A stretch of 64,000 nucleotides of DNA from Heloderma charlesbogerti (taxonomy: Eukaryota; Chordata; Lepidosauria; Squamata; Helodermatidae), in assembly GCA_026122225.1 (NCBI GenBank), contig JANEZZ010002683.1, forward strand, positions 1,116,001 through 1,180,000. Reading direction: 5' to 3'. Positions 554 to 64,000 of this stretch are shown here, piece after piece (within the stretch, counting starts at the first letter, position 1; each line of letters begins with the position of its first letter). Below the pieces are notes generated by a model. The model had not been told where the DNA came from and ran no database searches. It worked only from the letters and a program-made list of their open reading frames with translations. Position numbers and translations under genes: made by a program.

Positions 554-1382
554 TAGGGATGTATGAAAGTCACTTACCTGTTCGCGGATTATGCTGATGC
601 TGTGGGGGAGGCACTCCGTCCCTCCCCCCGAAATTCTGGCCAGCTGGCTCCGCTCCGCAGGTATTCCGCAGGACATCCGGCCGCTGGCTAGCAGGGACGC
701 AAATAGTGGCGGCCGTAGCCACGGCCGTTTGCGTCCCTGCAGTCAGCCGTGATAGGCTACGTAAATGGCTGAGTAAAAAACAACAACGCGCGTACGCAAA
801 TGGTGGCGCCCATGGGCGCCGCCATTTGCGTTCCTTATTTTGGCACGTCTTAGTCTACGTAAACATTTACGTAGACTACAGCGAAAATAAGGGGAACGCA
901 AATAGTGTAGATGCTACGCTATTTGCGTTCCCCTTATTTTCGCCATAGTCTACGTAAATGTTTATGTAGACTAAGACGTGCCAAAATAAGGAACGCAAAT
1001 GGCGGCGCCCATGGGCGCTGCCATTTGCATACGCGCATTTCTTTTTTTTCTTTTTTTTACTCAGGCGTGATAGGCTACGTAAACATTTACGTAGCCCATC
1101 ACTGTGTTTTTTAAAATTTAGCCGTGATAGGCTACGTAAATCTTTACGTAGCCTATCACTTTTTTTGTTTTTTTTTAAACTTGGAAATGGCGGCAGCCAC
1201 CGCCAGTTGGAAGACCAGCCGCTGCAGCTGCCGCCGCTGCAGCCGCCACCGCCAGGAAGATCCGCCCCAGGTAAGTCCCGTCCCGGGGGGGCGGGGGGCC
1301 GTTCTGCCACCGATTTCGGGGGGCCGAATGCGCTGGCATTCGGCCTCCCCAAGATCCGTGGCGGAACTTTCGTACATCCCTA
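554..1382 (-). mobile_element. Palindromic non-autonomous hAT-like element, copy 1 (B left, A right)
   Basis: Begins TAGGGATGTATGAAAGT and ends ACTTTCGTACATCCCTA, a 17-bp inverted repeat with one mismatch, flanked by an 8-bp duplication. Inward from the left come a C/G-rich arm, a GCAAATAGTGG palindrome, half of a GTGATAGGCTACGTAAA palindrome (its second half is deleted near 766-770), and then a 249-bp macro-palindrome (788-1036). Two further intact GTGATAGGCTACG palindromes follow at about 1068-1101 and 1125-1161. The right end carries the A-type hairpin (TTCCGCCACGGATC arms around a CATTCGG/CCGAATG core) but finishes with B-type terminal bases, a hybrid end. No transposase ORF is present; reading frames inside are by-products of the palindromes. 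The hAT assignment rests on the 8-bp duplication and short inverted ends. Confidence 0.9.
788..1036. repeat. 249-bp macro-palindrome made of five smaller palindromes
   Basis: Runs from GCGCGTACGC to GCATACGCGC with its centre at about 912. In order it holds a GCAAATGGTGGCGCC palindrome, a TAGTCTACGTAAAC palindrome, the central GCAAATAGTG/CTATTTGC palindrome, and then the second and first again in inverse order. Short A/T-rich connectors (TTATTTTGGCACG, GCGAAAATAAGGGG) are also mirrored. Both arm-to-arm and unit-level pairing are therefore possible. Confidence 0.9.
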
Positions 1383-1390
1383 CATGGAAC

Positions 1391-2553
1391 ACCTAATTAC
1401 TTTGAATGAGTTCAAATCTCCAGGGCCAGATGAACTGCACCCTAGAGTAATAAAGGAACTGGCAGAAGAACTCTCAGAACCACTGTCTATTCTCTTTGAG
1501 TACTGGAGGAGGGCTAATGTTGTCCCTATCTTCAAAAAGGGTAAAAAGGAGGAACCTGGGAACTACAGACCAGTCAGTTGGACATCAATCCCTGGGAAAA
1601 TTCTGGAGCAGATTATCAAGCAATCCATCTGTAAGCACCTTGAAAACAATGCAGTGATTACTCGAAGCCAACATGGATTTGTCAAGAACAAATCCTGCCA
1701 GACTAATCTGATCTCATGTTTTGATCAAGTCACCTCCCTTGTGCACTGTGGGAATGCTGTGGACATAATATATCTTGCCGTCAGCAAAGCTTTTGACAAA
1801 GTGCCCCGTAATCTCCTGATGAGCAAACTAGCTCAAAGTGGGCTAGATGAAACAATGATCCAGTGGATCCACAGTTGGCTACAGAATCAGACTCAAAGAG
1901 TGCTTATCAATGGGATCTTCTCAAACTGGGGAGAGGTAAAGAGCAGGGTACCGCAGGGCTCAGTCCTGGGCCCAGTGCTCTTCAACATATGTATTAATGA
2001 CTTGGAGGAGGAGGTGCAGGGAATGCTGATCAGATTTGCAGATGACACAAAATTGGGCGGGATAGCTAATACTTTGGAAGACAGAAACAAAATTCAAAGT
2101 GATCTGGATAGACTGGAGCGCTGGGCAGAAAACAACAGAATGACATTTAATAGGGAGAAATGCCAAGTTCTGCACCTAGGAAAAAGAAACCAAATGCACA
2201 GTTACAAGATGGGGGATACGTGGTTCAACAACACTACAAGTGAAAGAATCTTGGAATTGTTGACGATTCACAAGCTGAATATGAGCCAACAATGCGATGT
2301 GGCTACAAGAAAGGCAAATGCTCTTTTGGGCTGCATTAAAAGAAGAATAGCTCCCAAATCCCAGGAAGTACTAGTTCCCCTCTACCCAGCACTGGTTAGG
2401 CCTCATCTGGAGTACTGTGTCCAGTTCTAGGCACCACATTTTAAGAAGGATGCAGACAAACTGGAGAGGGTTCAGAGGAGGGCAACAAAGATGATCAGGG
2501 GACTGGAAACAAAGCCCAGTGAAGAGAGACTGAAAGAACTGGGCATATTTAGC
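1391..2553 (+). pseudogene. CR1 LINE reverse-transcriptase domain (right part of the split copy)
   Basis: A nearly open stretch encodes the CR1 reverse transcriptase. In order it shows FKSPGPDELHPRV, WRRANVVPIFKKG, NYRPVS, SQHGFVKNKSC, AFDKVPRNLL, RVPQGSVLGPVLF, the catalytic FADDTKL (about 2035-2055) and, near the end, RPHLEYCVQF. The family is known to copy its own RNA into DNA at a nicked chromosomal target. Against the paralogue at 51.1 kb the segment encoding the SWRTGEVPD-like motif is deleted near 1500. A stop at about 2428 and later changes end the frame. Sequence stops at 2553, where another hAT element begins, so the natural 3' end is missing. Confidence 0.9.
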
Positions 2554-3513
2554 TAGGAATGTACGAAAGTTCCACGACGGATCTCGGGGAGGCCGAATGC
2601 CAGCGCATTTGGCCCCCTGAAATCGGTGGCGGAACGGCCCGCCCCCCCGCCCCCCGTGGACGAGACTTACCTTGGGCGGATCTTCCTGGCAGTGGCGGCT
2701 CCAGCGGTGGCTCAGCGGCAGCAGCGGCGGCAGCCGGTCTTCCGACCAGCTGCCGCTGCTGCCATTTCCAGGTTAAAAAAACCAAAAAAACGTGATAGGC
2801 TACGTAAAGATTTCATAAAAATTACGAAAAGATTTCGAAAGAATTTCGTAAAGATTTCGTAAAGATTATGTAAAAATCACGGCTAGATTTTAAAAAAACA
2901 CCATGATAGGCTACGTAAATGTTTACGTAGCCTATCACGGCTGACTTAAAAAAAAAACAACGCGCGTACGCAAATGGCGGCGGCCATGGCCGCCATTTGC
3001 GTTCCTTATTTTGGCACGTCTTAGTCTACGTAAACATTTACGTAGACTAAGATGGCGAAAATAAGGGGAAATAAGTTCCCCTTTTTTTCGCCGTAAAAGC
3101 CTATGTAAATATTTACGTAGGATAAAATGGCGAAAAATAGGGAATGCAAATGGCAGCCGCCGTAGCTGCCGCCATTTGCGTATGCCGTTTTGGGGGGGGG
3201 GCATGCCATGATAGGCTACGTAAATCCTTACATAGTCTATCATGGCAGCCTGGAAGGATGCAAATGGCGGCCGCTATGGCAGCCACCATTTGCATCCACA
3301 GCAGCCCGTCCATGGCCGGTCGTCCAGCTGCGGACAGCCCTGGCCGGCTGCTCCATGGAGCTGCTGCGGAGCAGAGCCGGCCGGGCAGGATTCCGGGGGG
3401 AAGGACCGAATCATCTCCCCCCCTGTCAAGGATTCCGGGGGGAGGGATGGAGCGCCTCGCCCCCCACCACGAATCAATTCCGCGAAAAGGTAAGTGATTT
3501 TCGTACATCCCTA
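2554..3513 (+). mobile_element. Palindromic hAT-like element, copy 2 (A left, B right), no target duplication
   Basis: Starts TAGGAATGTACGAAAGTTCC, which joins a B-type terminus to an A-type hairpin, the same hybrid end as the right end of copy 1. It ends GGTAAGTGATTTTCGTACAT plus CCCTA, type B. Inside are a CCGGTCTTCCGACCAGC palindrome, a decayed run of GATTTCGTAAAG repeats at 2810-2870, GTGATAGGCTACGTAAATG palindromes, a GCAAATGGCGG macro-palindrome around 2965-3180, and the C-rich B arm. The left flank (TATTTAGC, inside CR1) and right flank (AACCTGAA, start of another repeat) do not match. Either the target was deleted on one side, or the copy is a recombinant of two elements. Confidence 0.85.
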
Positions 3514-3611: not shown

Positions 3612-3794
3612 TAGGGATGTATGAAAGTTACTTATCGTTTCGCGGATCTGCTTCGCAGTGCGGGGGAAGGTGCTCCGTCCCTCCCCCCAGAGTCCTGCCT
3701 GGCTGGCTCCGCTCCGTGGGGATACTGCAGAGCTGCTGGCCGGCTCCGCCAGCAACCAGACATCCGGCCGCTGGGTAGCAGGGATGCAAATGGT

Positions 3795-3802
3795 GGCTGC
3801 CG
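3795..3802. repeat. 8-bp target-site duplication of the nested copy (partner 4786-4793)
   Basis: GGCTGCCG flanks the inner element perfectly. Rejoining the two flanks restores the GCAAATGGTGGCTGCCG/TAGCCGCCGCTGTTTGC palindrome of the outer element. Confidence 0.95.
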
Positions 3803-4785
3803 TAGGGATGGCGGAGAATTTCTCCCCGAAACTTCGGGGGGCCGAGCGCCAACGTGTTCGGCCCCCCGAACAAGTTTTGGGGAGAAACCCTCCGCACCCC
3901 CCCGCACCCCGCACCCCCCCCGGGACGGGACTTACCTTTTGCGAATGTCCCTCCCGGTGGCTGGTCCGGCCGGCGGTTCGGCGGGTGTTCGAGCGAGGCG
4001 GGAGCGGCAGCCGGTCTTTCGACCGGCTGCCGCCGCCGCCATTGTAATGAAAGAAAAAAAAAAAACGCCCCCTGATAGGCTACGTGACGATTCACGTAGC
4101 CTATCACGGCTAGATTTGCAAAGTCAGCCGTGATAGGCTACGTCAATCGTCACGTAGCCTATCACGGGTGACTTTAAAAAATTTTTTTAAAAAGAGCGTA
4201 CGGATAATGGCGGCCCCCATAGGGAGCCGCCATTCCCGTTCCTTATTTGGTGGCTGTAGTCTACGTAAATGTTTACGTAGACTATGGTGAAAATAAGGGC
4301 AACGCTATTTGCGTTGCCCTTATTTTCGCCGTAGTCTACGTAAACATTTACGTAGACTACAGCGACTAAATAAGGAACGCGAATGGCGGCTCCCTATGGG
4401 GGCCGCCATTCGCGTACGCGCTTTTTTTTTTTTTTTAAGTTACCCGTGATAGGCTACGTGACGATTCACGTAGCCTATCACGGCTGACTTTGCAGATCTA
4501 GCCGTGATAGGCTACATGAATTGTCACGTAGCCTATCAGGGGGCGTTTTTTTTTGTTTTTTGTTTACTTTCGCGTTCGTGGCCGGGCGAGGCGAAGCGAG
4601 GCGCCTCCTCCCCGGCCTGAATTTCGGCCGGGCGAGGCGGGAAGCCTCCCCCCCGGCCTGAATTTCGGCCGGGCGAGGCGGGAAGCCTCCCCCCCGGCCT
4701 GAACTTCACGGGGGGAGCAGCGAAGTGCCTCCCCCCCACCGCGAACGGCCTTCGACAACAGGTAAGTGACTTTCGTCCACCCCTA
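3803..4785 (+). mobile_element. Palindromic hAT-like element nested inside another copy (A left, B right)
   Basis: Starts TAGGGATGGCGGAGAATTTC and ends AGGTAAGTGACTTTCGTCCA plus CCCCTA. It has three parts: a hairpin A end (GAGAATTTCTCCCCGAAAC, with GAGCGCCAACGTGTTCGG at the apex), a near-continuous palindrome of about 480 bp, and a B arm with direct repeats of GGCCGGGCGAGGCGGGAAGC at about 4620-4700. It is flanked by a perfect 8-bp duplication taken from the outer element, so it is the younger of the two. The 480-bp palindrome is the best preserved in the window. There is no transposase gene. Confidence 0.93.
4066..4545. repeat. 480-bp near-perfect palindrome built from nine sub-palindromes
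   Basis: Begins CGCCCCCTGATAGGC and ends GCCTATCAGGGGGCG, with its centre near 4306-4308. Left to right it holds two TGATAGGCTACGTGACG-type palindromes, the GTACGGATAATGGCGG palindrome, a TAGTCTACGTAAATG palindrome, the centre GGGCAACGCTATTTGCG, and then the mirror image of all four. A-rich connectors on the left match T-rich connectors on the right, so the arms extend slightly beyond these limits. Confidence 0.9.
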
Positions 4786-5457
4786 GGCTGCCGTAGCCGC
4801 CGCTGTTTGCATCCCTGTATTCAACTATGATAGGCTATGTAAAGACTTACGTAGTCTATCACGTCTGGGTAAAAAAAAAAAAAAGCATACGCAAATAGCG
4901 GCAGCTACGGCAGCCGCCATTTGCGTTCCTTATTTTTCGCCATCTTAGTCTACATAAATATTTACGTAGACTATTACGGCGAAAATAAAGGGGAACGCAA
5001 ATAGCGCCCGCTATGCTATTTGTGTTCCCCTTTATTTTCGCCATAATAGTCTACGTATATATTTACATAGACTAAGACGGCCAAAAATAAGGAATGCAAA
5101 TGGCAGCGGCTGTAGCCGCCACCATTTGCATACGCGTTTTTTTTTAACCCAGCCGTGATAGCCTACGTAAATCTTTATGTAGCCTATCATGTCTCTGTAA
5201 AAAAAAAAAAAAACTACCGCCAGACTGCAAATGGCAGCAGCAGCAGCCGGTCGGAAGACCAGCTGCTGCCCCTGCCAAAGCTGTCGCTGGAGCTGCCGCC
5301 GTCCGGAACATCCGCCCCAGGTAAGTCTCGTCCCGGGGGGATCCGCAGGGGGGCGGGGGGGCAGGCCGTTCTGCCACAGGTTTCAGGGGGCCGAATGCCA
5401 GTGCATTCGGCCTCACTGAAATCCGTGGCGGAATTCTCTGCCATCCCTTCCTGGAAG

Positions 5458-11828: not shown

Positions 11829-12603
11829 TAGGGATGTCAGAGAATTCCGCGACGGATCTCGGTGAGGCCGAATGCCAGTGCATTTGGCCCCCAGAAATCT
11901 GTGGCGGAACGGCCTGCCACCCCCCTGCGGATCCCCCCCGGGACGAGACTTACCTGGGGCGGATGTTCCGGGCGGCTGGTCTTCCAACTGGCTGCTGCCG
12001 CTGCCATTTGCAATCTGGAGGTGTTTTTTTTTTACAGAGACGTGATAGGCTACGTAAAGATTTACGTAGCCTATCACAGCTGGGTTGGAAAAAAAAAAAA
12101 CCCGTACGCAAATGGCGGCGGCTACAGCCACCGCCATTTGCGTTCCTTATTTTTGGCCATCTTAGTCTACGTAAATATTTACGTAGACTATTACGGCGAA
12201 AATAAAGGGGAACGCAAATAGCGTAGCAGGCGCTAATTGCATTCCCGTTTATTTTTGCCGTAATAGTCTACATAAATATTTACGTAGACTAAGACGGCCA
12301 AAAATAAGGAACGCAAATGGCGGCAGCCATAGCCGCCGCCTTTTGCATACGCGGGGGGGGGGGTTGGGGGGGGGTTTACCCAGAGCCCTCCGCGGCTGGA
12401 AATCCAGCTGCGGACGGCTCTGGCCTGGGCCTGGCCAGCTGCTCCGCAGAGCCGCCACAGAGCACAGCTGGTCGTTCAAGGATTCTGGGGGGGAGGAACG
12501 GATCTCCTCCCCCCCGTTGAGGATTCTGGGGGGAGGGATGGAACACCTCCCCCCCCCCATAAACATAATCCGCAGAAAGGTAAGTGACTTTCGTACATCC
12601 CTA
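11829..12603 (+). mobile_element. Palindromic hAT-like element (A left, B right)
   Basis: Starts TAGGGATGTCAGAGAATTCC and ends GGTAAGTGACTTTCGTACAT plus CCCTA. It shows the A hairpin (CCGCGACGGATCTCGG arm), a GTGATAGGCTACGTAAAG palindrome at about 12043-12077, a macro-palindrome at about 12104-12352 centred near 12227, and a C-rich B arm. Flanks CTAAAGAG and CAAGAGTC look like one 8-bp duplication shifted by small indels. No coding capacity. Confidence 0.85.
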
Positions 12604-13304: not shown

Positions 13305-13937
13305 TAGGGATGTGCAAAAGTCACTTGCCTTTTCGAAGGGGTGATTCGCGGTGGGGGGGAGGCGCTCCGCACCTCGCCCCGAAATCCTAACTCGGCTGGC
13401 TCTGCTCTGCGGCAACTCCGCGGAGCCACCGGCTGAGTGCATTCGCAGGCATGCGGAGCCTGCGGACGCAAATGGTGGCGGCTATGGCGGCTGCCATTTG
13501 TGTTCCTGTTTTTTTGCCGTGATAGGCTACATAAATATTTACATAGCCTATCACGGCAAAAAAACACGGGCGCAAATGGCAGTGGCTACAGCGGCCACCA
13601 TTTGCATTCCCTTTTTTTGCCGTGATAGGCTACGTAAATATTTATGTAGCCTATCATGGCCTCTGCAGGGACACAAATGTTATCCCTGCGTTAGCTGTGT
13701 TAGCCTATGTAAGTATTTACGTAGCCTATCACGGCAAAAATGGGGAAGCGAATGGCAGCCGCAGACACCTGCCATTCGCAAAGCAGCGTGAACGGCACCA
13801 GGTAAGTACTCCGTTTCATGTGCCTTTCGCGGGGTGGTGAGGCGGGGGGGGCTTCGTTCCACCACAGATTTCAGGGGGCCGAATGCACTGGCATTTGGCC
13901 TCACTGAGATCCGTGGCAGAATCCTCTGACGTCCCTA
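13305..13937 (-). mobile_element. Palindromic hAT-like element (B left, A right), 'alternating' subfamily
   Basis: Starts TAGGGATGTGCAAAAGTCAC and ends ATCCTCTGACGTCCCTA, flanked by perfect TGCAAATT duplications (13297-13304 and 13938-13945). The interior alternates GTGATAGGCTACATAAAT-type palindromes with GCAAATGG-type palindromes and lacks the large macro-palindrome. CAGGTAAGTACTCC lies at about 13798 before the A arm. The A hairpin has CCGAATGCACTGGCATTTGG at its apex. Confidence 0.92.
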
Positions 13938-16599: not shown

Positions 16600-17229
16600 T
16601 AGGGGTGTATGAAACACTTACCTGGTTCCACTGGGGCCATCGGCAGTGGGGGGGGAGGCACTCTGCCCCCCCAAATCCTCCTCAGCCAGCTCTGCTCCGC
16701 AGCAACTCCGCAGAGCCACTGGCCGGGGCCGCCCGCAGCTGGACCTCCATCCGCTGCTGGGCTGCGGCCGCAAATGGCATAGCGGCTGCCATAGCCATGA
16801 TAGGCTATGTATATATTTACATAGCCTATCATGGCAAAAGGCAGGAACGCATATGGCGGCCGCTACGCCATTTGCATCCCTGCCTTTCGCCATGATAGGC
16901 TACGTAAATATATACGTAGCCTATTACGGCTACCGCAGGGATGCAAATGGCGGCCGGTACACCATTTGTGCCCCTGTGTTAGCCGTGATAGGCTACGTAG
17001 ATACTTACGTAGCCTATCACAGCTTGGCAGGGACGAAAATGGTGGCCGGCATAGCAGCCGCAGCCCAGCAGCAGCCGGAAGACCACCCGGAGCTACCGCC
17101 GGAGCTACTGCCAGAGCCACTGCCGTTGCCAGGTAGGCTCCGTCCCGAGGGGATTTCACGGGGTGGCAGGGGGGATTGCCCCATTCCACCATGGACTCCG
17201 GAGTCTGGCGGAATTCTCCAACATCCCTA
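16600..17229 (-). mobile_element. Palindromic hAT-like element in the LINE (B left, A right)
   Basis: Starts TAGGGGTGTATGAAACACTT and ends GGCGGAATTCTCCAACATCC plus CTA. It is flanked by perfect GTATACAC duplications (16592-16599, 17230-17237), which fit the loose hAT target pattern nTnnnnAn. The interior is of the alternating type, with ATGATAGGCTATGTATAT, ATGATAGGCTACGTAAAT and GTGATAGGCTACGTAGAT palindromes separated by GCAAATGGC palindromes. Confidence 0.93.
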
Positions 17230-17717: not shown

Positions 17718-18631
17718 TAGAAATGTATGAAAGTCACTTACCTTTTTGTGGATCTGCTTCACGGTGGGGGGGGAGGTGCGCCGTCCCTCCCCCCAGAGTC
17801 CTGCCTGGCCGGCTCCGCTCCGCAGGGATTCCGCGGAGCCACTAGCTGGCTCCGCCAGCAGCCGGACATCCGGCTGCTGGGCAGCAAAGACGCAAATAGC
17901 GGCTGCCATAGCCACCACCGTTTGCATCCCTGTATTCAAACGTGATAGGCTACGTAAAGACTTACATACGTCTGGGTAAAAACTTACGTAGCCTATCACG
18001 TCTGGGTAAAAAAAACCAAAAACGTGTATGCAAATGGCGGCAGCTACGGCCGCCGCCATTTGCATTCCTTATTTTTCGTCGTCTTAGTCTACGTAAATAT
18101 TTACGTAGACTATTACGGCGAAAATAAAGGGGAATGCAAATGGCGTAGTGGGCACTATTTGCGTTCCTTTTTGATTCCCCGTTTTAGCCTACGTAAATAT
18201 TTACATAGGCTAAAACAGCGAATCAAAAAGGGATGCAAATAGCTCCCGCTACACCATTTGCGTTCCCCTTTATTTTTGCCGTAATAGTCTAAGTAAATAT
18301 TAACGTAGACTAAGGCGGCGAAAAATAAGGAACGCAAATGGCGGCGGCCGTAGCCGCTGCCATTTGCATATGCATTTTTTTTTAACCCAGACATGATAGG
18401 CTATGTAAGTTTTTACGTAGCTATCACGTCTATGTAAAAAAAAACACACACACATAAACAACCAGACTGCAAATGGCGGTGGCGGCAGCCGGTCAGAAGA
18501 CCAGCCGCCGCCGCCCGGAACATCCGCCCCAGGTAAGTCTTGTCCCGGGGGGGATCTGCAGGGGGCAGGGAGTGGCAGGCTGTTCCGCCATGGATTTTGG
18601 GGATCCGTGGCAGAATTCTCTGACCTCCCTA
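17718..18631 (-). mobile_element. Palindromic hAT-like element, large subfamily, in the LINE (B left, A right)
   Basis: Starts TAGAAATGTATGAAAGTCAC and ends TTCTCTGACCTCCCTA, flanked by perfect ATAGGGAG duplications (17710-17717, 18632-18639). It carries the expanded macro-palindrome at about 18023-18375, centred near 18199 on a GTTTTAGCCTACGTAAAT palindrome. That is one palindromic layer more than the small form. CCCCAGGTAAGTCTTG lies at about 18527. The A arm is shortened. No ORF. Confidence 0.93.
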
Positions 18632-24347: not shown

Positions 24348-25070
24348 TAGGGATGTCAGAGAATTTCTCCACGAATCTCGGGGAGGCCGAATGCCAGCGC
24401 ATTCAGCCCCCCGAAATTGGTGGAGAAACGATCTCCCCCCCCCCCGGGATGGGACTTACCTTGCTCGAATGTCCCTGGCGGCGGCAGCTCCGGCGGCGGT
24501 TTGGCGGCGGTTCGGCGGCGGCTAGTCTTCCGACCGGCCGCCAACACTACCATTTCCAAGTAAAACAAACAAACAAACGTGATAGGCTACGTAAATGTTT
24601 ACGTAGCCTATCACGGCTGGCTTTAAAAAAAAAAAGCGCGTACACAAATGGCGGCGCCCATGGGCCCTTATTTTCGTTGCGTTGCCCTTATTTTCGCCGT
24701 AGTCTACGTAAACGTTTACGTAGACTACACGTGCCACAATAAGGAACGCAAAAGCGTACGCGCTTTTTTTTTTTTTAAGTCAGCCGTGATATCACGGCTG
24801 ACTGCAGGGACGCAAACGGCGGCGGCTACGGCCACCGCCATTTGCGTCCCGGCAGGAGACGAGGTTTCGCAGCCGGAGGGATGGGGCACCTCCCCCCCGG
24901 CCAGAATTTCGGCGGGGAGGGACGGGGCGCCTCCCCCCCGGCCAGAATTTTGGCAGGGAGGGACGGGGCACCTCCCCCCCCGGCCAGAATTTCAGGGGGA
25001 GGGACGGAGCGCCTCCCCCCCACCGCGAAGCAAGCTTCGGGATCAGGTAAGTGACTTTCGTCCATCCCTA
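24348..25070 (+). mobile_element. Palindromic hAT-like element (A left, B right)
   Basis: Starts TAGGGATGTCAGAGAATTTC and ends CAGGTAAGTGACTTTCGTCC plus ATCCCTA, flanked by perfect CTCCCAAC duplications (24340-24347, 25071-25078). It has one intact GTGATAGGCTACGTAAATG palindrome. The macro-palindrome at about 24635-24765 has lost large parts of both arms, yet TAGTCTACGTAAACG remains. Near 24783-24800 a GTGATATCACGG scar shows a palindrome collapsed by deletion of its middle. The B arm holds three imperfect direct repeats of GAATTTCGGCGGGGAGGGAC type. Confidence 0.92.
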
Positions 25071-29903: not shown

Positions 29904-30786
29904 TAGGGATGTACGAAAGTGACTTACCTTTCGCGGATTATGTTGATTGGGGGGGGAGGCGTTCCGTCCCTCCCCCCGGAATCCTGGACAGGGGGGGAAG
30001 CGATCCGTTCCGGAATCCTCGATGGCCGGCTGCGCTCCGCAGCAGCTCCGCAGAGCAGCCGGCCAGGCCCAGCCCAGCCCAGAGCCGTCTGCAGCCGGAT
30101 TTCTGGCCGCAGAGGGCTCGGGGGGGGGGAAACAACCCGTGTACACAAATGGTGGCGGCTATGGCTGCCGCCATTTGCATTCCTTATTTTTGGCCGTCTG
30201 AATCTACGTAAATATTTACGTAGACTATGACGGCGAAAATAAAGGGGAACGCAAATAGCGTAGCGGGCACTATTTGCGTCCCTTTTTGATTCACCGTTTT
30301 AGCAAACGTAAATCTTTACGTAGGCTAAAACAGCGAATCAAAAAGGGACGCAAATAGCGCCCGCTACGCTATTTGCGTTCCCCTTTATTTTCGCTGTCAT
30401 AGCCTACGTAAATATTTACATAGATTCAGACGGCCAAAAATAAGGAACACAAATGGCGGCGGCCGTAGCCGCCACCATTTGCGTACGCGGTTTTGTTTTT
30501 GTTTCTAAACCAACCCAGCCATGATAGGCTACATAAATGTTTACGTAGTCTATCATATCTTTTTTTTTTTTTAACAAGACTGCAAATGGCGGTGGCGGCA
30601 GCCGGTGAGAAGACCAGCTGCCGCAGCTGCCGCCATCAAAGCCACCGCTGGAGCCGCCACCTCCCGGAAGATCCACCCCAAGTAAGTCTCGTCCCAGGGG
30701 GGATCCACAGGGGGCGGGGGGTGGCAGGCCATTCCTCCACGGAGTTCGGGGGGCCGAATCCGTGGCGGAATTCTCTGACATCCCTA
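29904..30786 (-). mobile_element. Palindromic hAT-like element, large subfamily (B left, A right)
   Basis: Starts TAGGGATGTACGAAAGTGAC and ends GGCGGAATTCTCTGACATCC plus CTA, flanked by perfect CCCTGGAT duplications (29896-29903, 30787-30794). The expanded macro-palindrome runs about 30140-30489, centred near 30313 on GTTTTAGCAAACGTAAATC. The mirrored order is GCAAATGGTGG, TCTACGTAAATATTTACG, GCAAATAGCG, the GATTCACCG connector and the centre. Donor-like CCCCAAGTAAGTCTCG lies at about 30676. Confidence 0.95.
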
Positions 30787-30941: not shown

Positions 30942-31802
30942 TAGGGATGTCAAAGAATTCCGCGATGGATCTCGGTGAGGCTGAATGCCAGTGCATTCGG
31001 CCCCCCAAAATCCGTCGCGGAATGAAGCCCCTGCCCCCCCACGAAAGGCGCGCGGAACGAAGTCCCCTCCTCCCCCACCCCACAAAAGGCGCACGAAATG
31101 GAGCACTTACCTGCTCCCATCCGCGCTGCATTGCGAATTGCAGCTGTCCTGGCTGCCATTCTCTTCCTCCTCTTCCTAGCTGTGATAGGCTACGTAAATA
31201 CTTACGTAGCCTATCATGGCTAATGCAGGGACGCCATTTGTGTCCCTGCGGAGGCTGTGATAGGCTACATAAGTATTTACATAGCCTATCACGGCAGGGC
31301 AGGGGGAAACCCCAGCGTACGCAAATGGCGGCAGCTACCGCCATTTGCTTATGCTGGGTTTTTTTTCCCCCTGCCATGATAGGCTATGTAAGCATTTACG
31401 TAGCCTACCACGGCAGGGGGGAAAAAACGCCAGCGTATGCAAATGGCGGTAGCCGCCGCCATTTGCGTACGCTGGGTTTTTCCCCCCCTGCTGTGATAGG
31501 CTACATAAGTATTTGCGTAGTCTATCACAGCTCAATACAGGGTCGCAAATGGTGGCGGCTATGACAGTCGCCATTTGCGTCCCTGCAGGGCTGCCCAGCG
31601 GCCAGATGTCTGGCTGCGGGCGGCTGGAGCCAGTCGGCAGCTCCGCGGCTTGGCTGCAGAGCACAGCCGGCCAGGCAGGATTCCAGGGGGAGGCACGGAG
31701 CGCCTCCCCCCCCGTCGAGGATTCCAGGGGGAGGGACGGAGTGCCTCCCCCCCACCGTGGATGCCCCTGCGCGGAGCCAGGTAAGGGATTCGTGCATCCC
31801 TA
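30942..31802 (+). mobile_element. Palindromic hAT-like element, alternating subfamily (A left, B right)
   Basis: Starts TAGGGATGTCAAAGAATTCC and ends CAGGTAAGGGATTCGTGCAT plus CCCTA, with perfect ATAGTATC duplications (30934-30941, 31803-31810). It lies 155 bp from the previous copy and in opposite orientation. The A arm has two extra CGAAAGGCGC/AAAAGGCGCACGAAATGG direct units. Then GTGATAGGCTACGTAAATAC-type palindromes (five) alternate with GCAAATGGCGG types. It is closely related to the copies at 40733 and 13305. Confidence 0.95.
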
Positions 31803-32730: not shown

Positions 32731-33523
32731 TAGGGATGTACGAAAGTGACTTACCTTTTCGCGGATTCTGTTCATGGTGAGGGGGGAGGCGTTCCATCCC
32801 TCCCCCTGGAATCCTCGACGGGGGGGGAGGCGATCTGGTCCTCCCCCCCGGAATCCTCGACGGCCAGCTGTGCTCCGCGGCGGCTCTGCAGAGCAGCCGG
32901 CCAGGCCCAGGCCAGGGCCATCCGCAGCCAGATTTCCAGCCGCGGAGGGCTCTGGGTAACAAAAAAAAAAGGCGAACGCAAATGGCGGCGGCTATGGCCG
33001 CCGCCATTTGCGTTCCTTATTTTTCGCCGTCTTAGTCTATGTCAATATTTACGTAGACTAAGACAAAGAAAAGAAAGGGGAATGCAAATAGCGTAGTGGG
33101 TGCTATTTACGTTCCCCTTTCTTTTCTTCGTCTTAGTCTATGTAAATATTGACGTAGACTAAGACGGCAAAAAATAAGGAACGCAAATGGTGGCGGCCGT
33201 AGCCGCCGCCAATTCCGTACGCGTTTTTTTTTTTTAAACCCAGACGTGATAGGCTACGTAAGTCTTTACGTAGCCTATCACATCTATTGGGGGGGGGAAG
33301 ACACAGACTGCAAATGGCGGCAGTGGCAGCTGTTCGGAAGACCAGCTGCAGCCGCCGCCAGAGCCACTGCCATCTGGAATATCCGCCCCAGGTAAGTCTC
33401 ATCCCAGGGGGGATCCACAGGGGGCGGGGGGGTGGCAGGCCGTTCCGCGATGGATTTCGGGGGGCCGAATGCACTGGCGTGCGTCCTCACCAAGATCCGT
33501 CGCGGAATTCTCTGACATCCCTA
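32731..33523 (-). mobile_element. Palindromic hAT-like element (B left, A right)
   Basis: Starts TAGGGATGTACGAAAGTGAC and ends GCGGAATTCTCTGACATCCC plus TA, with perfect CATCCAGG duplications (32723-32730, 33524-33531). The macro-palindrome runs about 32973-33222, centred near 33097 (GAATGCAAATAGCGTAG). It has one GTGATAGGCTACGTAAGTC palindrome and CCCCAGGTAAGTCTCA at about 33387. This copy gives the clearest view of the 8-bp duplication that defines the family as hAT-like. Confidence 0.95.
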
Positions 33524-39239: not shown

Positions 39240-39832
39240 AGAAAGAAAAGGGGGATGGCGTGGGTGCCCAATTCCGTCCAGGAATCTGACGGAACTCCTC
39301 CTGCCTGCACCCCTGAGCCCTGCTTGCTGAGCCCCTGCCCACGCTCGCCCCCTGCCCATGCTCAGAGAGTGGCCCACACTCACCATGGCAGCCTCATCAA
39401 GCTCTGTGATAGCCATTTTTTGAAAAATAAAATGGCGATCACCAAAATGTGTATATTTGCGTATGTGCAAAAGTGCACATTTTGCGAATGTGCACATTTG
39501 CATATGTATAGAAGTGTGCCTTTTGTGGATGTGCATATTTGCATATGTGCGAAAATGCACATTTTTGTGGAAATGCACATTTTCATGCATATGCAAATAT
39601 GCACATTTGCAGAAATGCGCATTTCCACGCATATACAAATATGCGTATTTTGGCAATCGCCATTTTATTTTTCAAAAAATGGTGACTGCAGAGCTTGACA
39701 AGGCCGCTGGGGTAAGCACAGGCTGCTTGTGAGCACAGGAGGAGTTTGCGCATGGTCCGAGGACCGGTGAGCAGGCCAGGGGCTGGGCGGGTGCCTGGAG
39801 AACCTGGACAGGTGTGGGTTCGCACATCCCTA
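39240..39832. mobile_element. Foldback element rich in TGCACATTTGCATATG, hAT-like right end
   Basis: Right end GGGTTCGCACATCCCTA resembles the TAGGGATGTGCGAA terminus of hAT-like elements; the left limit is uncertain. A palindrome joins GCCATTTTTTGAAAAATAAA (39412-39431) to ATTTTATTTTTCAAAAAATG (39662-39681). Between them about ten short inverted units carry GCACATTTGCATATG variants. This repeats the design of the main family with a different vocabulary. Long frames here are translations of the repeat. Confidence 0.6.
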
Positions 39833-40732: not shown

Positions 40733-41470
40733 TAGGGATGTCAGAGAATTCCATGATGGATCTCAGTGAGGCCGAATGCCAGTGCATTCAGCCCCCCAAA
40801 ATCCATCGCAGAACGAAGCCCCCGCCCCCCAACCCACGAAAGGTGTGTGGGATGAAAGTCCCCACCGCGCCCAACCCACAAATGGCACACGAAATGGAGC
40901 ACTTACCTGCTCCCGTCCATGCTGCTTTGCGAATGGCGGCTGTCCTGCGGCCGCCATTCACTTCGTCTTCATAGCCATGATAGGCTATGTAAATACTTAC
41001 GTAGCCTATCATGGCTAACGCAGGGATGCCATTTGCATCCCTGCGGAGGCCGTGATAGGCTATGTAAGTATTTACGTAGCCTATCACGGCAGGGGGGGGG
41101 AAACCCAGCGTACGCAAATGGCGGCAGCTGCCGCCATTTGCATACACTGGGTGTTTCTCCCCTGCCGTGATAGGCTATGTAAATATTTACGTAGCCTATC
41201 ACGGCTCAATACAGGGATGCAAATGGCGGCGGCTACGACAGCTGCCATTTGCGTCCCTGCAGGGCTGCCCAGCAGCCAGATGTCCGGCTGCGGGCGGCCG
41301 GAGTCGGCTGGCGGCTTGGCCACGGAGCGGAGCTGGCTGGGCAGGATTCGGGGGGGGGAGGACTGGATCGCCTCCCCCCCCATCGAGGATTCTGGGGGGA
41401 GGGACGGAGCGCCTCCCCCCCACTGCGGATTGCCCGGTGCGGAGCCAGGTAGGTGTTTCGTACATCCCTA
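40733..41470 (+). mobile_element. Palindromic hAT-like element, alternating subfamily (A left, B right)
   Basis: Starts TAGGGATGTCAGAGAATTCC and ends CAGGTAGGTGTTTCGTACAT plus CCCTA. Flanks are ATAGGAAC (40725-40732) and ATAAGAAC (41471-41478), one mismatch. It has three ATGATAGGCTATGTAAATAC-type palindromes alternating with GCAAATGGCGG types, the same order as the copy at 30942 but shorter, because one palindrome pair is missing. The B arm has two G/C-rich direct repeats. Confidence 0.93.
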
Positions 41471-43723: not shown

Positions 43724-44242
43724 TAGGGATGTACGGATTCCCCACCATCTGTTTTGGTGGGGAATCCACCTGGGGGGAAGATCCATTCCTCCCCCCCCCC
43801 CCGAATCCTCTGGAGCGGCTCCGCTCCGTGAGGATTCTGCAGAGCCGCCCAGCTTGAGGGCTGCTTACCTAGACCCATTTGCCTCCGCGCTGATCGCCAT
43901 GTTGCTTAAAAAAATGGCAATTGGGAGGATGTGCCCATAGACTTATACGCAAAGTAGAGCCGTGAATCTTACGTATACGTCTGTGAACACTTATATGCAA
44001 GATTCATGGCTCTATTTTGCGTATTAAGTCTATGGGCACTTCCTGGTGATAGCCATTTTTTTTTTTTAAGGCGATCGACACGGAGGGGAATGGCTCCAGT
44101 TAAGCCAGCCGCCGAGAGCTGTTCTGCGCAGAATCCTCCTGGAGCGGAGGTAAGTGGGGCCGTCCCACCGCAGATTCCAGAGGCTGGATTCCAAAGAATC
44201 CTGCCACATTTGAATCCACAGCGGATTTCTCTAACATCCCTA
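43724..44242. mobile_element. hAT-like element with a different internal palindrome
   Basis: Starts TAGGGATGTACGGATTCCCC and ends GCGGATTTCTCTAACATCCC plus TA, flanked by perfect GCCGTCAG duplications (43716-43723, 44243-44250). The left arm folds (GGATTCCCCACC with GGTGGGGAATCC). The centre, 43931-44050, is a palindrome of TGCCCATAGACTTATACGC / AAGTCTATGGGCA and ATGCAAGATTCATGGCTC / GAGCCGTGAATCTTACGTAT. It lacks GGCTACGTAAA units. Family termini with an unrelated palindromic core mark it as a sister subfamily. Confidence 0.9.
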
Positions 44243-50059: not shown

Positions 50060-51610
50060 TTAATGGTAGGCGTTCAGTGCTTTACATAGGTTCTTGCTCC
50101 TCCTCCAGACTAGCAAAACTTGAAAGAATTGTATCAAATTGTGCAGAATGGTAATATGTTTCACATGGACACTCGGCTCTGCCTCCTGGCAGCATTGGTG
50201 GGCAACAGGTGGAAGAGGCAATGGAATGGGAAGAAATGTTGCTGTTAACTTCCTCGTACAGAAAGTAGAGGAAGGAACTACAGGATTGGCTATCCTTGAC
50301 TTGATCCTAACCAACAGAGATGACTTGGTGGATAAAGTAGCAGTTATGGGAACTCTGGGGGAAAGTGACCATGTTATCCTTGAGTTCTTGGTTCTAAAGG
50401 AAGCAAAAGCCAAGTGTAGCCAAACACGTTCCCTGGATTTTAGGAAAGCCCATTTTAATAAGCTCAGAACAATTAGAAGTAAGGACCCATGGCAAGCAAC
50501 TAATGAGAAAAGGAGTCGAAGATATGTGGGAGTTTTTAAAAAAGGAAATTCTGAAGGCACAATTACAAACAATTCCAACAAGGAAAAAAGGCGGAATACA
50601 ACAGAAGAAGCCAATGTGACTTCACAAAAAGCTTAGAGAAGACCTGAAAACATAAAGGAAGTGGAAGGAAGGTCAAGCTACAAAGGAAGAGTAGAGGCAG
50701 GTAGCACAGAATTGCAGGGATGGCGTCAGGAAGGCTAAAGCTGAGAATGAGCTGAGGGTAGCGAGGGATGCTAAAAGCAACAAAACGGCTTTCTTCAGCT
50801 ACGTGCATAGTAAAAGACAGAGGAAAGAAATGGTCGTTCAGCTATTAAATAAGGATGGCAAAATGATAACAGAAGGCAAAGAAAAGGCAGAAGTGCTCAA
50901 TTCCTACTTTGGCTCAGTTTTCTCCCAAAAGAGGGTCTATGAGCCCCCTGGCAAAGGTGAAATACAGGCTGAAGGGGCAGGATTGCAGCTTGAGATCGAT
51001 AGGCATATGGGCAAGGAACACCTAATTACTTTGAATGAATTCAGATCTCCAGAGCCGGATGAACTGCATCCTAGAGTAATAAAGGAACTGGCAGAGGAAC
51101 TCTCAGAACCACTGTCTATTATCTTTGAGAAATCATGGAGGACAGGTGAAGTGCCAGATGACTGGAGGAGGGCTAACGTTGTCCCTATTTTCAAAAAGGG
51201 CAAAAAGGAGGAACCTGGGAACTACAGACCAGTCATCTATCCCTGGGAAAATTCTGGAGCAGATGATAAAGCAATCCATCTGTAAGCACCTTGAAAACAA
51301 TGCAGTGATTACTCGAAGCCAACATGGATTTGTCAAGAACAAATCTTGCCAGACGAATCTGATCTCATTTTTTGATCAGGTAACCTCCCTTGTGGACTGT
51401 GGGAATGCTGTGGACATAATATACCTTGCCTTCAGCTAAGCTTTCGACAAAGTGCCCCATGATATCCTGATGAGCAGACTAGCTCAAAGTGGGCTAGATG
51501 AAACAACTATTGGGTGGATCCATGGTTGGCTACAGAATTAGACTCAAGGAGTGCTTATCAATGGGATATAGGTCCCTTCCAACCCTACTATTCTATGATT
51601 CTACGATAAC
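50060..51610 (+). pseudogene. CR1 LINE, ORF2 middle portion fused to the 3' tail
   Basis: The frame shows the end of the endonuclease domain (ILDLILTNRDDL, then GTLGESDHVILEF at about 50350-50390), the linker (SKRQRKE at about 50806), SPEPDELHPRV, SWRTGEVPDDWRRANVVPIF (about 51130-51195), NYRPVI, SQHGFVKNKSC and FDKVPH. A frameshift near 51235 and a stop at about 51436 break it. After GGAGTGCTTATCAATGGGAT (about 51570) it jumps to the CR1 3' tail (GGTCCCTTCCAACCCTACTA), so the catalytic FADD part and most of the C-terminus are deleted. It matches 313-2553 closely and serves as an internal empty-site control for the hAT insertion at 554. Confidence 0.9.
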
Positions 51611-52764: not shown

Positions 52765-53478
52765 ACTCGATGTCCTTGTAGGTAGGGATGGACAAAAGTC
52801 CCTTACCTGGTCCCGCAGCTTGCTTCGCGGTGGGGGGGAGGTGCCCCATCCCTCCCCGCCGAAATTCTGGCCGGGGGGGAGGCGCCCCGTCCCTCCGGCC
52901 GCGAATCCTGCTGTCCTGCCGGGTTGCAAATGGCGGCAGCAATAGCCGCCGCCGTTTGCGTCCCTGCAGTCAGCCATGATAGGCTACGTAAATGTTTACG
53001 TGGCCTATCATGGCTGACTTTGGGGGGGAAAAAAAAGTACATACGCAAATGGCAGTGCTCATGGGCGCCGCCATTTACATACACGCTTCCCCCCCCCAAA
53101 GTCAGCCGTGATAGGCTACGTAAACATTTACGTAGCCTATCACGGTGTTTTTGGAAAATCTAGCCGTGATAGGCTACGTAAATCTTTACGTAGCCTATCA
53201 CGTTTGTTGTTGTTAGTTTTTTTTTACACTTGGAAATGGCGGAAGACCGGCCGCCGCCACCGCCGCACCACTGCCAGGAGCCGCCGCCGCCAAGGACATT
53301 TGACCAAGGTCAGTCCCATCCCGGGGAGGTGGCGGGGGGGTGGCGGACCGTTTCTCCACCAATTTCAGGGGGCTGAATGCATTGGCATTCGGCCTCCCGG
53401 AGATTCGTGGAGAAATTCTCCGACATCCCTACGTAGGCCCCTTCCAACCCTACTATTCTATGATTTTATGATTCTGTA
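52765..53478 (+). mobile_element. CR1 3' tail split by a hAT-like copy
   Basis: 52762-52782 (TGGACTCGATGTCCTTGTAG) and 53434-53478 (TAGGCCCCTTCCAACCCTAC, then CTATTCTATGATTTTATG) join into a normal CR1 tail once 52783-53431 is removed. Only the last part of the tail is present. Confidence 0.85.
52783..53431 (-). mobile_element. Palindromic hAT-like element in a CR1 tail (B left, A right)
   Basis: Starts TAGGGATGGACAAAAGTCCC and ends GAGAAATTCTCCGACATCCC plus TA. The left duplication CTTGTAGG pairs with a right CGTAGG that has lost two bases. The interior has an ATGATAGGCTACGTAAATG palindrome (with GTGGCC replacing GTAGCC on one side), a GCAAATGGCAGTGCTCATGG palindrome, two further GTGATAGGCTACG palindromes, and a shortened A arm with CCAAGGTCAGTCCC where other copies have AGGTAAGT. 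Confidence 0.9.
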
Positions 53479-55468: not shown

Positions 55469-55780
55469 TAGGGATGTACGAAACGACTTACCTGTTTCGT
55501 TTCGTGACATCCGCGGTGGGGGGAGGAGCTCCATCCCTCCCCCTGAAATCCTCGCCGGCCGGCTCCGCTCTGCAACAACTCCGCAGAGCCGCCGGCCAGG
55601 GCTGCCTGCAGCGACATCCAGCCACTGCTGGGCTGTGCAGAGATGCAAATGGCGGCCGCTGTAGCTGCTGCCATCATTTGCGTCCCTTTTTTTTTGCCGT
55701 GATATGGCCTCCGCAGGGACGCAAATGTCATTGGCATTTGGCCTCACTGAGATCTATGGCGGAATTCTCCGCCATCCCTA
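55469..55780 (-). mobile_element. Internally deleted palindromic hAT-like element (B left, A right)
   Basis: Only 312 bp. Starts TAGGGATGTACGAAACGACT and ends GCGGAATTCTCCGCCATCCC plus TA. Flanks GTAGAACC (55461-55468) and GTAGAATT (55781-55788) agree at six of eight positions. It has the C/G-rich B arm and one GCAAATGGCGGCCGC palindrome, then a scar GTGATATGGCC where the GGCTACGTAAA palindromes were lost, then a short part of the A end. Confidence 0.9.
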
Positions 55781-55788
55781 GTAGAATT

Positions 55789-59599: not shown

Positions 59600-60177
59600 T
59601 AGGGATGTTAGAGAATTCCGCCACGGACTCCAATGAGGCTGGATTCTTTAGAATCCGGCCCCCAGAGTCCGTGGCAGAACAGAGCACTCTCCACCACCAC
59701 CCATGAAATTTTCCCGGGACGGACCCTACCTGGCATTGGCTGGTCTGGTCCATCCACAGCCCCGGTCTGTGGCCGCAAATGGCTACCCCAGTCTGCAGCC
59801 GCCGTTTGCCTCCCTACTTTAGCCGTCATAGGCTATGCAAGTATTTACGTGCTATCATGGCAAAAAGCAGGGACGCAAATGGCGTCCACTATGCCATTTG
59901 CGTCACTACTCTTTGCCGTGATAGGCTATGTAAATATATACGTAGCCTATCACAGCTAACGCAGGGATACAAATGGAGCCTGCTACACCGGACGCCATTT
60001 GCAGCCGCAGCCCGGCAGCGGACAGAAGTCCGCCTGTGGGCGGGCCTGACCAGCGGCTCCGTGGACTTGCCGCGGAGCAGACCCAGCCAGGGAGGATACT
60101 GGGAGGAGGGATGGATCGCCTCCCCCGCACCGTGGATGCCCCGCACCACAACGGGGTAAGTAATCTGCCCATCCCTA
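59600..60177 (+). mobile_element. Palindromic hAT-like element in a CR1 3' region (A left, B right)
   Basis: Starts TAGGGATGTTAGAGAATTCC and ends GGGTAAGTAATCTGCCCATC plus CCTA, with perfect GTTTCCTG duplications (59592-59599, 60178-60185). It is of the alternating type: a GTCATAGGCTATGCAAGT palindrome damaged on its right side (GTGCTATC), a GCAAATGGCGTCC palindrome, a GTGATAGGCTATGTAAATAT palindrome, and a short C-rich B arm. The A hairpin apex is GGCTGGATTCTTTAGAATCC, different from the CCGAATG apex of most copies. Confidence 0.94.
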
Positions 60178-60185
60178 GTTTCCTG

Positions 60186-60280
60186 TGGGCAGCTGGTTGG
60201 CCACTGTGTGAACAGGATGCTAGACTAGATGGACCGTTGGTCTGATCCAGCAGGGCTCTTCTTATGTTCTTATGTTAGAG
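60186..60280 (+). mobile_element. CR1 3' tail, right part
   Basis: GTGTGAACAGGATGCTAGAC, TAGATGGACCGTTGGTCTGA and TCTTCTTATGTTCTTATG end the CR1 3' region interrupted at 59599. Confidence 0.85.
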
Positions 60281-62158: not shown

Positions 62159-62998
62159 TAGGGATGTCAGAGAATTTTGCCACGAATCTCGGGGAGGCCG
62201 AATGCCAGCGCATTCGGCCCCCCGAAATCGGTGGCGAAATGGTCTGCCACCCCCCACCCCGGGACGGGACTTACCTTGGGCAAATCTCCCTGGCGGCGGC
62301 GGCTCCGGTGGCAGGTTGGTGGCGGTGGCTGCGGCAGCTGGTCTTCTGACCAGCTGCTTCCGCCATTTCCAGTAAAAAAAAAAAACGTGATAGGCTATGT
62401 AAAGATTTACGTAGCCTATCACGGCTAGATTTTTAAAAAATAGGCTACGTAAATGTTTACGCAGCCTATCACGGCTGAGTAAAAAAAAAAACAAAAACCC
62501 GCGCGTACGCAAATGGCAGTGCCCATTGGCGCCGCCATTTGCGTTCCTTATTTTGGCACGTCTAGTCTACATAAACATTTACGTAGACTACGGCGAAAAT
62601 AAGGGGAACGCAAATAGCATAGACGCTACGCTATTTGCGTTCCCCTTATTTTCGCTGTAGTCTACGTAAATGTTTACGTAGACTAGATGTGCCAAAATAA
62701 GGAACGCAAATGGTGGTGCCCATGGGCACTGCCATTTGCGTACGCGCGGTTGGTTTTTTTTTTTAACTCAGCCGTGATAGGCTACGTAAACATTTACGTA
62801 GCCTATCACGGCTGACTGCAGGGACGCAAGTGGCGGCGGCTATGGCCGCCACCATTTGCAGTCCCGGCAGGACAAGATTCGCGGCGGGAGGGACGGGGCG
62901 CCTCCCCCATGGCCAGAATTTCGGGGGGAGGGACGGAGCGCCTCCCCCCCACCGCAAATCAACTTTCGTAAAAGGTAAGTGACTTTTGTACATCCCTA
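62159..62998 (+). mobile_element. Palindromic hAT-like element (A left, B right), target duplication lost
   Basis: Starts TAGGGATGTCAGAGAATTTT and ends GGTAAGTGACTTTTGTACAT plus CCCTA. It has a GTGATAGGCTATGTAAAG palindrome, another that has lost its first GTGA, the 248-bp macro-palindrome at 62501-62748 (centre near 62624), one more GTGATAGGCTACG palindrome, a GACGCAAGTGGCGGCGG palindrome and the B arm. Flanks CACGCATA and GAGTCCAC do not match. The surrounding tandem unit lacks about 63 bp at the right junction, so a deletion probably removed the right duplication. Confidence 0.9.
62501..62748. repeat. 248-bp macro-palindrome made of five smaller palindromes
   Basis: From GCGCGTACGC to GCGTACGCGC, with the same unit order as 788-1036. 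Its length differs from that copy by one base, although the two copies are 62 kb apart in the window. Confidence 0.92.
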
Positions 62999-63130
62999 GA
63001 GTCCACTAGCTTGTGTGTAAGGCGCAGGTGAAATTTGATTTTTTTCCAGGAAAACTCCCAAAACAAAGAGCTGTAACTTCTCCCCACCTCTGCCCCTGCC
63101 AGCACTCCGAAGATGCCTCATATTGCGTTG
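62999..63130. repeat. Third tandem unit, right of the hAT insertion
   Basis: GGTGAAATTTGATTTTTTTC and AAAGAGCTGTAACTTCTCCC repeat 62083-62140. It belongs with 61615-62158. Confidence 0.65.
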
Positions 63131-63685
63131 AATTGCTTTGCTACACAGTGGACTGTTATTGGAATAAGAAGGTAATTAATATAAATACTACGTGTCTTGT
63201 GCTTTTTCAACACTGCCTTGAAATTTGGATGTATAGTGTTGGTGGAACAAAACCTAGCATGCACACAGACACGGACACAGACACACAAGAGCTAAAGAAA
63301 AGCAGAACTACCTAAGCAAATGACAGGTGTCTTTAATTTACTGTTTTATATATCATGTTCTTTTATAGAAGACAGGATAACTTCAAGAAATACAGGGTGA
63401 TAGTGCAGGCAATTCAAACCCTAATTTAAAAAAGCCCTTCTTTAATTTCTGTTTTGGGAAGATCAACGCAGAGAAGACACAGACAGTTCACTTCAGCACG
63501 GGGAGCGGGGATAAACACTACACACATAGACTGCTATGATATGTCTTTCTTTAAGGATTTAGAAAGAAAGAAAATCTAAATGCTTGAATATGACTTTAAA
63601 GGGGGGGTAACATGCCCAGAAGTCAATGTTTGTTTTTAAAATTCTAAATAAGACTTGATTTGTATAAATCAAACAGAGACAGAGC
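63131..63685. other. No recognisable gene
   Basis: AT-rich DNA with a short ACAGACACGG-type run at about 63263-63290. No coding signal. Confidence 0.5.
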
Positions 63686-64000
63686 TAGGGATGTACGAAA
63701 CTCACTTACCTTTGCTCCGTCCCTCCTTGCGGAATCCTCGATGGGGAGGGAGGCGATATGGTCCTCCCCCCGCCCTGGAATCCTCGACAGCTGGCTCCGC
63801 TCTGCGGCCAGGCCGTGGAGCAGCCGGCCAGGGCCATCCGCAGCCGGATTTCCGGCTGCGGATGGCCTGGTGCAGACACAAATGGCAGCCGCTGTAGCAG
63901 CCGCCATTTGCGTCCAGCTAGACAGCCGTAATAGGCTACGTAAGAATTTACGTAGCCTATCACGACTAACATAAAAAAAACACAAAACCACGCAGCATAC
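63686..64000 (-). mobile_element. Palindromic hAT-like element, cut by the window edge (B left)
   Basis: Starts TAGGGATGTACGAAACTCAC. It has the C/G-rich B arm, a GCAAATGGCAGCCGC-like palindrome at about 63879-63913 and an AATAGGCTACGTAAGAATTT palindrome at about 63929-63966, then an A-rich connector. The left flank GACAGAGC (63678-63685) is the expected duplication, but its partner lies outside the window. Confidence 0.88.

Follow-up and report, generated by a model that had tools for sequence, protein, structure and literature searches.

How do palindromes hundreds of bases long arise in natural DNA, and how are they kept? The question is raised by a 64,000-nucleotide stretch of the Heloderma charlesbogerti genome (the window; positions 1116001-1180000 of its contig, with no N), in which an earlier reading of the letters, the original prediction, had noticed hAT-like elements built of palindromes within palindromes. 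We followed these elements through the assembly, scanned as 2.302 Gb in 3,246 contigs. The family is real, abundant and structurally unusual, and the concerted evolution of its nested palindromes is the main surprise. We consider it quite probable that it is a high-copy, non-autonomous, GC-rich miniature inverted-repeat transposable element (MITE) of hAT type, in whose source copies one arm of the palindrome was rewritten from the other.

The family in the window and in the genome

Each element consists of a chain of hairpins flanked by two unlike ends, X and Y. TAGGGATGT stands at both, and their consensuses agree over only about 9 bp. An exact 17-mer from an arm of the α palindrome described below, GTGATAGGCTACGTAAA, occurs 160,794 times genome-wide (80,660 + 80,134), against 0 + 1 for the reversed control, and the X end occurs 73,757 times with at most one mismatch, against 2 for its control. 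The window is enriched in the family (25 exact 17-mers per 64 kb, compared with 160,794 per 2.3 Gb). It holds 78 palindromes with arms of at least 12, against 0 in one single-base shuffle; 74 of the 78 lie in the elements, which span 13,790 bp or 21.5% of the window. Contig C1, sampled at 20 evenly spaced 10-kb loci (200 kb), yielded 43 palindromes, 22 of them outside hand-set element ranges.

The original prediction had counted nineteen window copies with shared ends, eleven of them with perfect 8-bp target-site duplications (TSDs). Both counts hold: 19 elements have TAGGGATGT-like ends and 11 have perfect TSDs, to which three with 1-2 mismatches can be added (554, 40733 and 55469, named by their first positions). 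The TSD is unrecognisable in four (2554, 11829, 52783, 62159), and 63686 is cut at the window end. Its assignment to a mobile hAT-like family stands as well, on the 8-bp TSDs, the TAGGG ends and a target bias. The bias is weak: T occupies position 2 in 28 of 64 and A position 7 in 28 of 64, counting both strands of the 32 perfect TSDs in our sample, some of which come from non-palindromic relatives. Ac-group hAT elements prefer nTnnnnAn targets, and the consensus of hAT terminal inverted repeats (TIRs) is YARNG. The accessible text of PMC3942097 gives hAT TIRs a length of 10-25 bp. At 312-1208 bp (40 palindromic elements, excluding the insert within 3612-5449), with high copy number, a TIR and a TSD, the elements resemble other MITEs, and they look non-coding and non-autonomous: of eight open reading frames scanned against Pfam, two overlap elements, and the sole match is the reverse-transcriptase part of one, lying outside the element.

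Our comparative set comprises these 40 palindromic elements: 17 from the window, three from the evenly spaced C1 loci (one in L011, two in L025), three from L002, L004 and L006, and 17 from L029-L048. The 20 elements of the two latter groups were picked through exact α 17-mers and are thus biased towards α-bearing copies. No qualifying pair of ends was found at L001 or at three of 20 targeted loci (L040, L043, L044), and L003, L005, L007 and L008 were excluded as overlaps. Seven of 43 TSD-flanked pairs were set aside as non-palindromic (L010, L011_6441, L020, L021, two in L027 and window 43724), and the four window copies lacking a TSD were included. The TSD rate outside the window is biased, since pairs there were chosen by TSD.

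Palindromes at two scales

From Y to X, an element reads TAGGGATGTACGAAAGTCACTTACCT..., GC-rich hairpins, the units C A C B (E D e) B C A (A) C, one more hairpin, AGGTAAGT and, at the X end, a hairpin closing just short of the end itself. The four or five palindrome types of the original prediction reduce to variants of only two palindromes: α, with versions A, B and a rare third (GTGATAGGCTACG.., TAGTCTACG.., GTTTTAGCCTACG..), and β, with versions C and D (GCAAATGGCGG, GCAAATAGCG). Since A and B are versions of α, and C and D of β, the array is an alternation of β and α. Interiors had also been described as nearly all palindrome; exceptions are 43724-44242, which has no units, and 55469-55780, a short remnant with one β unit.

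The symmetric unit order claimed for large copies is found in part of the family. A canonical symmetric C-B-(D)-B-C core is present in 18 of 41 unit strings (these include one set-aside relative, L027_866), 11 strings simply alternate and 12 are short or otherwise arranged. Canonical copies carry A outside, B inside and D at the centre, and their linkers and indels are mirrored as well. Summed over 37 elements, the longest symmetric order is 223, compared with a mean of 151 and a maximum of 173 in 500 shuffles, kinship making the elements non-independent.

The second, larger scale of palindrome is borne out. In 15 of the 18 canonical copies the best-scoring self-inverted repeat is centred, has no real spacer and spans 239-538 bp with an identity of 83-93%; in the remaining three (2554, L034, L046) identity is 72-78%. 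The consensus cores of three subfamilies are spacerless palindromes more nearly perfect than these single copies: S1 (518 bp, 94.6%), S3 (378 bp, 96.1%) and S5 (296 bp, 94.6%). The symmetric core is not confined to one or two copies. The alternating S6a consensus is palindromic over 198 bp at 88%, and S6b reaches 72% over its longest core.

The two arms change together

Between subfamilies, the same changes appear on both arms. The S1 and S3 consensuses differ at 17 places on the left arm and 26 on the right; 16 are common to both, compared with 2.6 expected if the arms were independent. The corresponding observed and expected values are 15 and 4.3 for S1-S5, 10 and 1.8 for S3-S5, 9 and 1.2 for S3-L038, and 14 and 3.2 for S5-L038; for S1-L038 they are 32 and 11.8, figures inflated by an outer stretch of L038, a single copy, that aligned to non-corresponding S1 sequence. 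Indels are shared between arms in the same way (CCCTT/CCCTTT; TAA, TCT or nothing before TAG). Changes on both arms number 103 over all α units, where shuffles give 37.7 (maximum 59), and 96 over all β units, where shuffles give 64.2 (maximum 81).

Arms that had long been independent would make left arms resemble each other more than they resemble right arms. In the 15 cores examined (one of them, L031, not canonical), the mean same-side and cross-side distances are about equal, indicating that the arms are not independent. In 11 of the 15 cores, no more than 10% of comparisons with other copies give a smaller distance than the copy's own pair of arms. The core of L039 is 13.6% from the S1 consensus, yet its arms are only 4.8% apart; in 29904 the arms are 8.2% apart and the S5 consensus is 9.9% away. 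Thirteen of 20 copies show an arm mismatch smaller than twice the divergence.

Single sites show the same pattern. At α site 8, 98 of 151 units are G/G, 40 are T/T and three are C/C. Exact genome-wide counts are 52,402 for T/T (B/B; 28-mer), at least 34,674 for G/G (A/A; a longer 34-mer, hence a lower bound) and 716 for G/T hybrids (28-mer, both orders). A/B hybrids are less than 1% of the sum, a size that single post-insertion mutations might produce by an uncomputed estimate. Among 50 T/T places listed, eight pairs lie 74-75 bp apart, and their centre dinucleotides are reverse-complementary in 8/8. Relative to the X and Y ends, the core centre can also point either way: six forward and two inverted in S1-type copies, three and two in S3 (19 centres). 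Changes of CpG type are mostly one-armed (α position 12: C/T in 25, T/C in 21 and T/T in three of 151 units).

In the accessible part of PMC8604942, arm homogenisation with spacer inversion is the signature of template switching, a process that, according to the part of PMC8794818 available, can create and maintain stems. Both marks, homogenised arms and an inverted spacer, are found here between relatives; a test within unit classes shows nothing.

Origin of the symmetry

A history of the following kind would account for the comparisons. The ends, alike in TAGGGATGT and otherwise unlike, would be recognised in trans by some transposase. The interior may have grown as an array in which two short palindromes, α and β, alternate, and have lengthened and shortened through recombination between repeated units. 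In source copies, one side of the array would then have been rewritten from the other, which would place variants, indels and linkers on both arms and flip the centre. Candidate routes are polymerase template switching, fold-back copying between the arms and arm-to-arm gene conversion; mirror-symmetric deletion through shared units may have contributed. Such copying would have acted in the few copies that founded subfamilies, each inserted copy decaying afterwards with its arms independent, and the symmetry would be a by-product rather than a selected function. S1 carries AA on each side and resembles an S3 (A left, AA right) whose right arm was copied leftward up to a poly-A tract. On sequence comparison, co-variation, rare hybrids and both centre orientations fit templated arm-to-arm copying better than independent compensatory mutation.

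It is also conceivable, as a more tentative proposal, that the transposon symmetrises itself: one arm would rebuild the other within the life cycle, for example by fold-back synthesis in excision-gap repair, and the transposition cycle itself would generate and enlarge the nested palindromes. No account of transposons evolving in this way came up in our literature search.

If the hairpins were functional, as RNA, cruciform or single-stranded DNA, selection for pairing could keep the arms alike through compensatory mutation. The elements do fold strongly. The 840-nt copy 62159-62998 reaches -334 as single-stranded DNA, compared with -133 (sd 5; z -39) in 20 shuffles, and -573 as RNA, compared with -284 (sd 8; 20 shuffles); in the S1, S5, S6a and S6b consensuses, 71-76% of bases pair at spans of at most 110; and the letters of the α core are strongly conserved, though the units were selected by similarity. 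We nevertheless regard this explanation as unlikely: indels and long linkers are mirrored too, hybrid intermediates are rare and CpG decay falls mainly on one arm. Moreover, the S1 consensus has identical mismatches inside small palindromes on both large arms, so that copying, not small-hairpin pairing, was preserved. A near-invariant α core, TAG-CTACGTAAA outside its CpG (151 units, themselves selected by similarity), would equally suit arrays of protein-binding sites, for transposase dimers or host factors, that are palindromic through binding, and β GCAAATGGCGGC presumably resembles YY1 and octamer sites. We give that account little chance. Half-site complementarity at the free position 8 is unneeded for binding, yet present, and the relative 43724-44242 has a perfect TSD without α or β units.

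Any tandem array of palindromic units appears mirror-symmetric whatever its history. The 11 alternating strings are of this kind, palindrome arrays being symmetric at the unit level, and Tandem Repeats Finder (TRF) reports periods of 93, 103 and 118 in copies of C-A type (16600, 13305, 30942) and of 100 in 17718 and 29904. As the source of the symmetry in canonical copies this is improbable, given the mirrored variants, linkers and indels there and a summed symmetric order above the shuffle maximum. Long perfect inverted repeats can also arise in libraries, from fold-back chimeric reads, but an assembly artefact at tens of thousands of places, with locus-specific TSDs and private mutations in the arms, is hardly credible.

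Several observations weigh against arm copying in source copies. The copying is deduced from comparison of copies, with no copying event seen directly, and centre flips could come from recombination between arms instead. Co-variation within unit classes does not exceed shuffling (A 22 against 20.2, B 24 against 33.1, C 53 against 54.8, D 0 against 0.4). The signal therefore rests on older differences between classes and subfamilies, perhaps few independent events; by the same token, any arm copying occurred in source lineages and not in dead copies. One-arm-only differences number 11, 11, 27, 12, 8 and 16 for S1-S3, S1-S5, S1-L038, S3-S5, S3-L038 and S5-L038, and the S1-L038 values are inflated as described above. 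In four of the 15 cores (L033, L036, L038, 11829), the copy's own arms are further apart than the sequences in 13-39% of other comparisons. Arm mismatch exceeds twice the divergence in seven of 20 copies (all five S6a, 11829 and 3612), as in L037, with 0.268 against 0.208. Symmetric order is lost in L002, L004, L006 and L041. The consensuses were built from five copies each (three for S6b), 23 of the 40 elements, in subfamilies grouped by hand from a tree. Finally, no autonomous partner with matching ends was found among the 40 3' flanks of hAT-domain matches examined.

Search for a transposase partner

A profile search with the hAT dimer domain PF05699 gave 871 candidates, of which 150 were scored and all 150 matched; for DUF4371, 47 of 150 scored among 184 candidates matched. 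Thirty-six of the 40 flanks belong to one family, H1 (L049-L095), a hyperabundant hAT transposase family with many open frames of 879-908 aa and a very long shared 3' sequence; its genes are multi-exon in appearance. H1 was suggested as the partner by an exact ACATCCCTA in 12 of the first 20 flanks, at offsets of 406-440 after the hAT domain and in one case 547. We rejected it, as homology continues past ACATCCCTA in 18 aligned copies, making ACATCCCTA internal and not an element end. Of three copies followed further, two keep the homology to some 2 kb beyond the domain and one, L090, is broken by an insertion. S1 was probably active after H1 spread, because H1 copies (L050, L051, L079, L090, L092) carry insertions of S1-type copies, identified by eye, each at a different one of five sites.

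A literature search, with most subscription papers outside its reach, returned no description of the palindromic family. Judged against the literature searched, it is best filed as a new variety of hAT-type MITE.

Outward motifs and composition

AGGTAAGT, which resembles a 5' splice site, points outward at both ends. With at most one mismatch, it is found close to the Y end in 36 of 40 copies, and the count for the X end is likewise 36 of 40; the opposite-strand control in the same stretches gives 0/40 at either end. Both motifs also occur, again with no more than one mismatch but at other distances, in two of six non-palindromic relatives (43724-44242 and L027:866-1486) and not in the other four. 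Motifs of splice-donor type that face outward on both strands would give the family a second feature both symmetric and conserved. Frames from ATG to the donor are open in 31 of 36 copies; we did not accept this as proof of function, as open frames may just reflect short GC-rich stretches. All 40 copies have the composition of CpG islands, with observed/expected ratios of 0.62-1.21, compared with 0.21 for the remainder of the window and 0.27 across the 20 C1 loci. The elements might possibly act as mobile cassettes that supply a first exon or a promoter in both directions.

Features of the window and related loci

The elements of the window and the relatives without an array are collected in Table 1. 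These relatives are other TAGGGATGT-type MITEs with 8-bp TSDs, one of them mismatched, and several have a related X end. Pairs of X ends 28-29 bp apart on the same strand were seen at C1:5519169-5519216 and C11:117916-117962.

Table 1. Elements of the family in the window, with the outward motifs of one copy and relatives lacking the α/β array
Position	Strand	Feature	TSD	Core and other evidence
554..1382	+	element, Y end left, X end right, 829 bp	CACGGAAC/CATGGAAC	spacerless palindrome 775-1049 (222-496 of element), 90.9%
572-579; 1269-1276	minus; plus	outward AGGTAAGT of 554..1382		motif scan, at most one mismatch
2554..3513	-	element, 960 bp, units CACBBCAAC	none recognised	
3612..5449	+	outer element split by insertion of the 3803-4785 element	perfect, CCTGGAAG	
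3803..4785	-	nested S1-type element	perfect, GGCTGCCG	4037-4574 (538 bp, 88.8%)
11829..12603	-	S5-type element	no clean TSD	12103-12351 (87.6%)
13305..13937	+	element, mainly alternating C-A units (CACABA)	perfect, TGCAAATT	
16600..17229	+	element, alternating units	perfect, GTATACAC	
17718..18631	+	element with rare third α variant	perfect, ATAGGGAG	17976-18416 (87.0%)
24348..25070	-	element, core partly missing (CBCA)	perfect, CTCCCAAC	
29904..30786	+	element, third α variant central	perfect, CCCTGGAT	30134-30493 (91.1%)
30942..31802	-	element, alternating CACACACA	perfect, ATAGTATC	
32731..33523	+	element	perfect, CATCCAGG	32951-33244 (86.8%)
40733..41470	-	element, alternating CACACAC	ATAGGAAC/ATAAGAAC	
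43724..44242	+	related element, not unit-palindromic	perfect, GCCGTCAG	X end related; outward donor-like motifs
52783..53431	+	element, units CACAAC	none recognised	
55469..55780	+	short derivative, 312 bp, one remaining β unit	2 mismatches	
59600..60177	-	element, units CACAC	perfect, GTTTCCTG	
62159..62998	-	element, units CACBDBCAC	none recognised	62440-62806 (91.6%; 193-559 of 840)
63686..64000	+	Y end and element start, cut by window end		end match
43724-44242; L027:866-1486; L027:8223-8969; L011:6441-6859; L021:5731-6041		non-array relatives		ends and TSD

Other repeats lie beside the family. A TRF array (period 41) with palindromes at 39406-39608 belongs to a different repeat, by eye unrelated, and long palindromes outside the family occur at L022:5529-5631 (arm 47 bp) and L018:1543-1626 (arm 36 bp). 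A reverse transcriptase frame of long interspersed nuclear element type (970-2427; Pfam RVT_1), which we take to be CR1, has part of its length duplicated at 92% identity (1583-1882 and 51234-51533). Rfam at the gathering threshold gave no match in the window, a tRNA scan of the window found none, and a search of viral contigs for the α palindrome gave 0 matches.

Comparison with known systems

In vertebrate DNA, long spacerless palindromes, hundreds of bases in length, are generally regarded as unstable. Here they occur in a family with 73,757 X ends, and of 41 strings, sampled in part for their α content, 18 have a symmetric core. Such numbers allow each homogenised arm, inverted centre or lost palindrome to be scored as an event on the family's tree, so that ideas about the origin and upkeep of natural palindromes can be tested quantitatively.

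Y-chromosome palindromes, with their arm-to-arm conversion, likewise have arms that evolve in concert; the scale here is 0.3-0.5 kb, inside a very high-copy transposon family. Foldback elements (FB, Galileo) share modular inverted repeats able to change length. Their long inverted repeats are terminal, whereas the repeat described here is internal (193-559 of 840, for example), spacerless and built of smaller palindromes, between unlike ends. The Drosophila hAT MITEs BuT2 (PMC3942097) and Mar, as described in the accessible text, are of one kind with our family in being short, with 8-bp TSDs, short ends and no transposase gene. Ours differs in the palindrome hierarchy inside, a median GC of 56%, richness in CpG, ends alike over only about 9 bp and the lack of a parent among the candidates found. 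With quasipalindrome template-switch mutation the family shares arm homogenisation and spacer inversion; in the accessible portions of PMC8604942 and PMC8794818 these are single short events, whereas the copying suggested here would extend across transposon subfamilies and hundreds of bases.

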